Shown here in pieces: positions 36,543-37,957 of a DNA stretch of 38,243 nt. Position numbers and translations under genes: made by a program. The notes beneath the pieces were generated by a model. That model was not told where the DNA came from. It was given only the letters and a program-made list of their open reading frames with translations, and did not search any database. Each line of letters opens with the position of its first letter. Within the stretch, counting starts at the first letter, position 1. This DNA comes from Bathymodiolus heckerae thiotrophic gill symbiont (GTDB taxonomy: Bacteria; Pseudomonadota; Gammaproteobacteria; PS1; Pseudothioglobaceae), in contig NZ_FXLV01000006.1 of assembly GCF_900180345.1 (NCBI RefSeq), positions 1-38,243 on the forward strand, in the 5' to 3' direction.

Positions 36543-36812
36543 ATGCAAATTACAGTAGAAAACATAAAATGTGGTGGTTGTGCAGGCACAATCACCAAAA
36601 AACTCAACACAGAATTTAACACCGAAAGTGCCAAAGTAAATGTCGAACAAGGCACAGTTGATATTGATATTGAAGACATTAAACGCAACGAAGTAACTAA
36701 AATTCTGCTTGGTTTAGGCTACCCTGAAATCGATTCAGTGCAAGGCTTCGACTCAGCGAAAGCTAAAGCTAAATCCTTTGTTTCTTGTGCCATTGGCAAA
36801 ATAGACAGATGA
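36543..36812 (+). CDS. Small heavy-metal-associated (HMA) domain protein
   Basis: The 89-residue protein is an HMA/CopZ-like ferredoxin fold. MQITVENIKCGGCAGTITKKL has the metal site as CGGC, where CopZ-type sites are CxxC preceded by MxC. The predicted strand-helix order follows (AKVNVEQGTVDIDI, NEVTKILLGLGY). A ~20-residue tail carries another Cys (FVSCAIGK). It may bind Cu(I) or another soft metal. No copper ATPase is adjacent. Its stop overlaps the thiS start (ATGA), so the two are co-translated, which is unexpected. A TATAAT lies ~30 bases upstream. Confidence 0.8.
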   Translation: MQITVENIKCGGCAGTITKKLNTEFNTESAKVNVEQGTVDIDIEDIKRNEVTKILLGLGYPEIDSVQGFDSAKAKAKSFVSCAIGKIDR

Positions 36813-37009
36813 TTTTACAAGTCAATGGCAAGCAGTTTGAAGTTGCCAGCGGATCCACTGCCACCGATTTAATCACAAAACTCAACCATCAAAACCAACG
36901 CATCGCCTTAGAAGTCAATAAAGTTATTATCCCCAAATCAAACCACACCAAATTCACCTTAAACGAAGGTGACATTTGTGAAATTATTAAGGCCGTTGGT
37001 GGTGGCTAA
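36809..37009 (+). CDS. thiS: Sulfur carrier protein ThiS
   Basis: ThiS carries a C-terminal thiocarboxylate that donates sulfur to the thiazole of thiamine. From the ATG at 36809 (MILQVNGKQFEVASGSTATDL) it has 66 residues, ubiquitin-like fold spacing (NQRIALEVNKVIIPKS, FTLNEGDICEIIKAVGGG) and the required Gly-Gly end. The 24-base longer frame starting inside the upstream gene is not needed. thiG usually follows thiS, but here a palindrome and a RAYT gene come next, so thiG must be elsewhere. Confidence 0.88.
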   Translation: MILQVNGKQFEVASGSTATDLITKLNHQNQRIALEVNKVIIPKSNHTKFTLNEGDICEIIKAVGGG

Positions 37010-37032
37010 TTGTCAAGGTTGAACCTTGACAA
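37010..37032. repeat. REP-like palindrome, copy 1 (downstream of the RAYT gene)
   Basis: Perfect 11-bp arms TTGTCAAGGTT / AACCTTGACAA around a central G. It lies directly after the thiS stop and 1 base from the RAYT stop, so it could also act as a terminator for either strand. Confidence 0.85.
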
Positions 37033-37033
37033 G

Positions 37034-37683
37034 TTAAAACTCAAAGTCAGATTCTGCTAAAAGGATGTTTTTGTTATCAGCAAAAGCAATAGACGCTTGT
37101 TTAGCGTATACTTTATACCCCTCTAAGCCTTGAGCTTGGTCGATAATTTCGTTTATTTCGTCTGTATTACAAATACATTCACCTACCTCTTTCTCTAAAT
37201 ATTCAAAAATACTTGATTTAACCAATGTTTTCTTTGGGTCAATTCCATGATGTTTGTAATTCAAATTAACATAACTAGCGACATTCAATAAAGCATAATC
37301 GCCACTCAAATGATTTGCCTTAAATCTACCCTGAAACAAACTACCAGAGCGCTCTTCCATCTTATTAAAAAACATAGTGTAGGATGTTCCTAGCCTTTGC
37401 ATAAATTTGACAATACCATTATCAATATTTTGCTTCAATAGTAAATGAAAATGATTTGGTAATAAACAGTATGCCACGACATTAACCAATTGCTCATCAG
37501 CCTTTCTGTCAAGGTTGAACCTTGACAAAGGTCCTGATTTGGATTCTACATCATTAAGTAGAGACAGTCCTTTGAAAAATACATCAATTGCTCTTGGTTA
37601 TTAAAAATAACCCGTTTATCAACCCCGCGATTATAAATATGATAATACTCATCGTTTGCAAAGGTAATTTTTCTATTTCCCAT
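37034..37683 (-). pseudogene. REP-associated tyrosine transposase (RAYT, TnpA_REP), frameshifted
   Basis: The N-terminal frame starts at ATG 37683: MGNRKITFANDEYYHIYNRG and VDKRVIFNNQEQL. The rest continues in another frame from ~37577 (FKGLSLLNDVESKSGPLSRFNLDRK). The change is one base in a T-run (A-run 37575-37579 on the plus strand). Joined, it is ~215 residues of the Y1 family, with the HUH metal site PNHFHLLLK and a candidate catalytic Tyr in the LLNVASYVNLNYKHHG block. RAYTs act on REP palindromes by single-strand transfer. Palindromes lie just after the stop, 56 bases before the start and inside the gene. One lesion only, so it is either a young pseudogene or a slippage-dependent gene. 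Confidence 0.85.
37507..37527. repeat. REP-like palindrome, copy 2 (inside the RAYT gene)
   Basis: TGTCAAGGTT / AACCTTGACA around G, identical to the core of copy 1. It is 21 bases long and in frame, and it encodes the SRFNLD segment between the N-terminal domain and the HUH motif. Confidence 0.85.
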
Positions 37684-37738
37684 TCTTAGCATCAATTTTA
37701 AAAACAAATTATGCACATCATAACACGGTAATGTGTTT

Positions 37739-37759
37739 TGTCAAGGTTCAACCTTGACA
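37739..37759. repeat. REP-like palindrome, copy 3 (upstream of the RAYT gene)
   Basis: The same arms as copies 1 and 2, but with central C in place of G. Since the arms are symmetric, this is the inverted orientation. It lies 56 bases upstream of the RAYT start and 26 bases past the end of the toxin remnant. Confidence 0.85.
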
Positions 37760-37784
37760 TGGGTTAATCGTAAAAAGTCAGTAT

Positions 37785-37957
37785 CTACTTGAGTTTTTCC
37801 TCAATTTCTTGCATTTCGTTTTTATTGAGTTTAGTTAGCATATTTGAGGTGAATTTGCTGATATCAATTGCACGAATGTAATTACAAACAACATTTGAAT
37901 CATATTCTAATTGATCTTGAGATTAGCTAGGTAAATACTGCCTCTAACTACATTCAT
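37785..37957 (-). pseudogene. MazF/PemK-type toxin remnant with internal deletion
   Basis: The start (ATG 37957) overlaps the antitoxin stop and reads MNVVRGSIYLANL, the PemK/MazF N-terminus. A stop follows a few codons later. In another frame from ~37915 the C-terminus of the same family appears (CNYIRAIDISKFTSNMLTKLN, then NEMQEIEEKLK, stop at 37785). About 50 central residues of the ~110 are missing. The toxin is certainly inactive. Confidence 0.7.

Follow-up and report, generated by a model that had tools for sequence, protein, structure and literature searches.

The thiotrophic gill symbiont of Bathymodiolus heckerae carries a transposase gene with one palindrome before it, after it and inside it. 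This arrangement raises the question of whether enzyme and palindrome belong together as a unit and, if so, by what process the copies are kept alike. We analyzed the 38,243-nt stretch of DNA that contains the gene (the window), the genome from which it comes (G000; 1.44 Mb in 119 contigs), and related genes in other genomes.

The transposase locus and its palindromes

The palindrome, TGTCAAGGTT(G/C)AACCTTGACA, is 21 bp long with a single variable centre base. The first-pass annotation of the window had placed exact copies 3′ of the transposase stop (central G), within the gene (central G) and 5′ of its start (central C), and our coordinates and frames agreed with this (Table 1). The three copies are real, exact and far above chance: 100 dinucleotide shuffles yielded 0 copies against three exact ones in the real window, where they are the only perfect palindromes with an arm of at least 9. 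As the annotation had also stated, the window holds no fourth copy, even with up to three mismatches allowed. The two flanking copies are oppositely oriented in the window, as claimed, in an orientation that rests on one centre base of an otherwise perfect palindrome. The downstream copy lies 1 nt from the stop codon of thiS, which is encoded on the opposite strand.

Table 1 Features of the transposase locus in the window.
Feature	Position	Strand	Basis and remarks
thiS, convergent neighbour	36812..37009	+	Pfam ThiS, 3.3e-13
Palindrome, downstream copy	37011..37031	unstranded	Central G on + strand; 2 nt past transposase stop
RAYT-like Y1/HUH transposase gene, frame-broken	37034..37683	-	Pfam Y1_Tnp on open part; frames
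Palindrome, internal copy	37507..37527		Central G; in frame, SRFNLD; ~50 nt before HUH codons, conserved internal position 1
Promoter-like TTGACA-16-TATGAT	37717..37744	-	Consensus match only
Palindrome, upstream copy	37739..37759	unstranded	Central C on + strand; 55 nt before ATG

The gene had been taken as a RAYT and proved to be frame-broken. Beginning with the ATG at 37681–37683, the first frame is open until a stop at 37546–37548, and the remainder lies in a different frame that ends at the stop at 37034–37036. The switch occurs before the first stop, probably at a run of five T (37575–37579). Because the gene is broken while its palindromes stay perfect, the break should be either recent or an assembly error; the window unit may thus be newly dead, or the break may be an artefact of assembly. 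Among the best matches, relatives of the window transposase were 49–69% identical. Two more genes of the same clade are located on other contigs of G000 (C26 and C16; L041, L042), each with its own imperfect flanking palindrome, and C32 and C42 carry stop-broken pieces of transposase-clade or related genes. DNA similar to window positions 37742–37919, 5′ of the gene, occurs in another genus (G056, L113), where it adjoins decayed palindrome-like sequence.

The genome-wide count that the first-pass annotation had proposed revealed palindromes elsewhere: G000 holds nine copies in 1.44 Mb (eight exact, one with one mismatch), whereas a reversed-pattern control gave 0 matches. Each of the six copies beyond the window stands alone and outside genes; one lies inside a mechanical 63-aa ORF, and no plausible gene was found at any of the six. 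We saw no sequence common to all G000 copies beyond the 21 bp. None of the six outer copies (0/6) forms an inverted pair, and we rejected the REPIN layout for G000 that the annotation had proposed to check; the sole doublet noted lies in gcvP of G005 (L135), where two palindromes stand in frame and inverted to each other, 5 nt apart. Exact copies of the window palindrome were found in two of the 115 genomes searched, G000 itself and G003, and in the latter a copy also lies 3′ of thiS, followed by a ~30-nt remnant of the transposase 3′ end.

Flanking palindromes across the clade

Relatives of the open C-terminal part were found in 34 of 71 genomes, its own included. A wider scan covered 84,980 species genomes and gave 339 matches, of which we kept the best 80; these came from SUP05-family bacteria and many Patescibacteria, and the titles of the SUP05-family matches include Thioglobus, Ruthturnera, Thiodubiliella and a Bathymodiolus symbiont. 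We compared a SUP05 set, without fragments and pseudogenes (L019, L029, L043, L044 and L056), and a second set that consists mostly of Patescibacteria (9/57 loci are without that label). A tree of 91 proteins placed the two sets mostly apart, with four label changes needed. Five Patescibacteria-labelled genes fell inside the SUP05 clade with support, reflecting transfer or misbinning, and L046 and L194 were placed weakly.

In close relatives from the SUP05 family, nearly every gene has a palindrome right before the start and another right after the stop, with a sequence that differs by lineage. Perfect arms of at least 8 bp within 65 nt were present upstream of 22/29 and downstream of 22/30 genes in the SUP05 set, and at 46/57 and 37/55, respectively, in the second set, compared with 8/854 and 73/1961 background windows and with 0/13 and 0/13 for distant Y1 genes. 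The upstream and downstream sequences had a 9-mer in common at 28/29 and 39/55 loci, against 283/812 and 323/2970 cross-locus comparisons. At the 62 of 87 loci with a palindrome on both sides, choosing the best-matching pair where there were several, which favours a match, gave a median of 0/19 mismatches within a locus and 10 between loci; at most 3/19 mismatches were found in 55/62 own-locus and 129/3782 cross-locus comparisons. Nearly every clade gene thus stands between copies of a private palindrome, and enzyme and target appear to evolve together.

The inverted flanks that the first-pass annotation regarded as the expected layout did not hold up as a family rule, which we rejected: among these 62 loci the orientation was the same in 32, opposite in 22, tied in one and unmatched in seven. 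A GT(A/G)G head was absent from the consensus beside the palindromes.

Several scattered copies adjoin terminator-like hairpins, as would be expected of ordinary short repeats or terminators with no link to the enzyme. Such repeats would not account for the enrichment at clade genes or for an own-locus match far above controls, nor for copies upstream of the gene and in frame inside it. We set the terminator reading aside on the latter ground, and regard ordinary repeats in general as a very improbable explanation.

Classification of the enzyme

The enzyme has the HUH motif, the tyrosine and the Y1_Tnp profile of the TnpA_Y1 (IS200-like HUH/Tyr) superfamily, with Pfam PF01797 above the cut-off in both transposase proteins scanned. 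The N-H-x-H motif and the tyrosine of a YVNLN motif are invariant across 34 relatives, and we infer that this tyrosine is the catalytic one. The best fold match of a relative was 4er8, a REP transposase bound to a REP hairpin (E 2.5e-5). A sequence search against solved structures returned just ribonuclease-linker matches, which we took as spurious, and PHROGs gave no match for the two proteins submitted.

Membership of the canonical RAYTs is a separate matter. NCBIfam REP_Tyr_transpos was matched by 34/34 relatives at E ≤ 0.01, and the individual scores of four proteins were 24.5, 32.2, 30 and 20.5 bits against a cut-off of 80. The NP(L/V)(R/K)xG motif, which defines RAYTs according to PMC2817692, is absent next to the tyrosine in the 34-row alignment. 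With the GT(A/G)G head also absent and inverted orientation not general, the enzyme is not a canonical RAYT/TnpA_REP by strict published marks. What stands of the earlier identification is that a RAYT-like Y1 transposase and its palindromes are linked and that the genome holds more copies elsewhere. REPtrons have flanking palindromes private to the enzyme and copies elsewhere in the genome, and so does the clade, with the exception of G031.

Copies inside the reading frame

The first-pass annotation had noted the internal copy but neither its in-frame placement nor its conserved position. Many clade genes carry an in-frame internal copy at one or both of two recurrent positions, 30–60 nt before the HUH codons and ~230–290 nt after them, beyond the YVNLN motif. 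Script counts of internal copies (9/30 in the SUP05 set and 47/57 in the second set) include weak 11-mer matches, and the same script also called 3/10 distant genes through 11-mers without a palindrome. Manual reading identified a real internal palindrome in eight SUP05 genes (six with perfect arms, two with imperfect ones) and in 40 genes of the second set. The first internal copy matched its own flank with at most three mismatches in 26/28 cases, against 74/1708 across loci, and the second in 15/19 against 47/1159. When a relative was modelled from a 34-row alignment (mean pLDDT 81), residues 60–67, which lie in the region of the first copy, scored below 50.

Dispersed copies and differences between genomes

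Copy numbers are low across genomes, from 2 to 26. G005 has 26 copies of its own type (24 exact), G002 has 14 (eight exact), and G011 has five (four exact), three of them at its gene; in the complete genome G031, the palindrome is present just as two gene flanks. Dispersed copies usually, though not always, match the palindrome of the resident gene: in a manual tally of ten second-set genomes, the resident gene's loop was found in about 20/34 dispersed copies, and it was absent in G119 (0/5), G122 (0/3) and G120 (0/2). Where a cognate gene is lacking, most copies are imperfect (e.g., 0 exact of five in G004); G003 (1/2) and G008 (1/1, of the G005 type) nonetheless have exact ones, in what are small samples. 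At 20 G005 sites, many flanks lie within longer repeats (eight groups at a lenient threshold), and therefore not every copy is an independent insertion. In G005 gltB (L125), a palindrome lies in frame with the length of the gene unchanged, and G007 has a near-match there. Identity between G004 and the window genome is 98–99% at two of the palindrome sites (L061, L073) and about 75–84% at most of the other sites compared, a pattern of either recombination or mixed assembly.

Close alignment of flanks was possible at purL and ispH only. Downstream of purL, G000, G003 and G009 have different palindrome types, and G007, G006 and G008 have no palindrome; this is the sole resolvable empty site among the six outer G000 copies, the other intergenic stretches being too diverged. 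At the ispH intergenic site, the palindrome is absent in eight relatives, and G005 and G002 each hold their own, unrelated in sequence. Two more intergenic regions, the one preceding tkt and the one that separates gshA from mnmE, also hold different types in G000 and G005, the claim here being one of the same intergenic region.

These dispersed copies bear on whether the palindromes are operators or mRNA hairpins that control transposase expression, with scattered copies as by-products and all copies alike because the protein must bind them all. Upstream copies lie a median of ~34 nt from the start, the window copy overlaps a promoter-like element whose first box (TTGACA) is the inner-facing end of the palindrome, and G031 has the two flanking copies only, all of which would suit such autoregulation. 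It would, however, leave unexplained the six dispersed copies in G000, about 20 in G005 and at least ten in G002, as well as palindromes at an otherwise empty intergenic site, and selection alone could hardly drive point mutations to alter as many as eight arms in concert. We consider autoregulation improbable.

Ten SUP05-family genes at one position have downstream sequence in common, 68–80% identical over about 1.1–1.5 kb, and most also have upstream sequence in common, several of them with the G005 gene as well. These 11 positional genes carry six palindrome cores, with flanks identical in 8/11 and 2/17 apart in the other three, where an asymmetric copy is inverted. Identical cores occur in species whose synonymous divergence is high or saturated. 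The dN/dS values in the positional group were 0.05–0.18 where computable, showing purifying selection on the genes of one positional group.

Repeated horizontal transfer could instead swap the whole gene with its palindromes at one place, and no renewal in place would be needed. Members of the clade occur in both the SUP05 family and Patescibacteria, and some genes labelled Patescibacteria fall inside the SUP05 clade; the window type is at thiS, with the G005 gene at another place. Both observations are in keeping with such replacement. Yet inheritance looks vertical, because ten genes hold one position with conserved flanking DNA and same-core genes cluster in the tree. The dispersed purL and ispH copies are also of species-specific types, and replacement of whole units is accordingly, in our view, an unlikely account.

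We consider it probable that the locus is a REPtron-like unit in which a RAYT-like HUH/tyrosine transposase with tagless perfect palindromes recognises and renews its own hairpins. The transposase would recognise its palindrome as a single-stranded hairpin and cut, move or copy it, placing palindromes at both gene ends, at tolerated in-frame positions and at scattered extragenic places, and the palindrome set of a genome would change along with the enzyme. This reading builds on the observed linkage, the private match within loci, the conserved positions, the purifying selection on one positional group, the insertion at an otherwise empty site and the differing palindromes in one intergenic region; from these sequence patterns, hairpin recognition, cleavage and mobilisation by the enzyme seem likely, and replacement in place, besides fresh insertion, may be what keeps the copies alike. 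The low copy numbers, the restriction to flanks in G031, the loop mismatches, the longer repeats around many G005 copies and the broken window gene count against it.

A bolder version is possible but doubtful. The palindrome might be a renewable address with up to four copies per gene (two flanks, two internal); upon a shift in preference, the enzyme would overwrite all its copies in place, including its own codons and near-matching codons of other genes, producing concerted, protein-altering turnover across two phyla.

Relation to known systems

We compared the clade with published systems as described in the papers cited. REPtrons, the RAYT/TnpA_REP systems (Nunvar 2010, PMC2817692; Quentin 2018, PMC6006769), are alike in having an HUH-Tyr gene bracketed by its own palindromes, intergenic copies and enzyme–palindrome co-evolution, and also positionally stable orthologues with changed flanking REPs (PMC2817692). 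The clade differs in lacking the GT(A/G)G tag, an NP motif after the tyrosine and a fixed inversion, and in having few copies and short perfect palindromes. TnpA_Y1 subclass 2.4 (PMC6006769) likewise has REPs in frame inside the transposase gene, but there the insertion is generally between HuH and Y, the REPs are of the GT(A/G)G type and the motif is WQ/YIxNNP, whereas our clade falls outside this subclass, its tagless copies preceding HuH or following the Y motif and its motifs being FQ/YVNLN. Genes of subclass 2.6 and class 3 (PMC6006769) also stand between atypical structures that lack GT(A/G)G, and differ in their motifs (YIH[QN]NP; YV..EQ), in occurring mostly in other phyla and, for class 3, in a CnGA foot. 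TIRYT genes of TIRtrons (Di Nocera 2013, PMC3733652) are Y1 transposase genes with non-REP flanking repeats; these are long terminal inverted repeats, many with GGGGWSAS, in contrast to short palindromes that also lie inside the gene. IS200/IS605 elements (PMC6006769) have the Y1 catalytic fold and subterminal hairpins. Their element copies are near-identical, whereas clade genes in one genome differ in sequence and palindrome, and bare palindromes are scattered.

For other subclasses, PMC6006769 and PMC2817692 have already described RAYT–REP co-evolution, orthologues that kept their position while their REPs changed, and REPs in frame within the gene. As far as the literature was compared, the new elements are the clade itself, its tagless palindromes, the absence of the NP motif and a pair of conserved internal positions whose copies match the flanks. 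Our search of paper listings found none on this clade, and we do not claim absence from print. Di Nocera 2013 (PMC3733652) left open the relatedness and the enzymes of untagged perfect palindromes.

Such untagged perfect palindromes can now be linked with an enzyme clade of their own, which occurs in the SUP05 family and in Patescibacteria. Tagged RAYTs choose the strand partly via GTAG. In this clade, strand choice must work otherwise or be lost, because a one-base centre lets both strands fold almost alike. As the internal copies show, an enzyme can hold its target within its own protein sequence where the position tolerates it. With every gene bringing along its own target, the clade offers dozens of natural enzyme–target pairs for the study of how hairpin specificity evolves.
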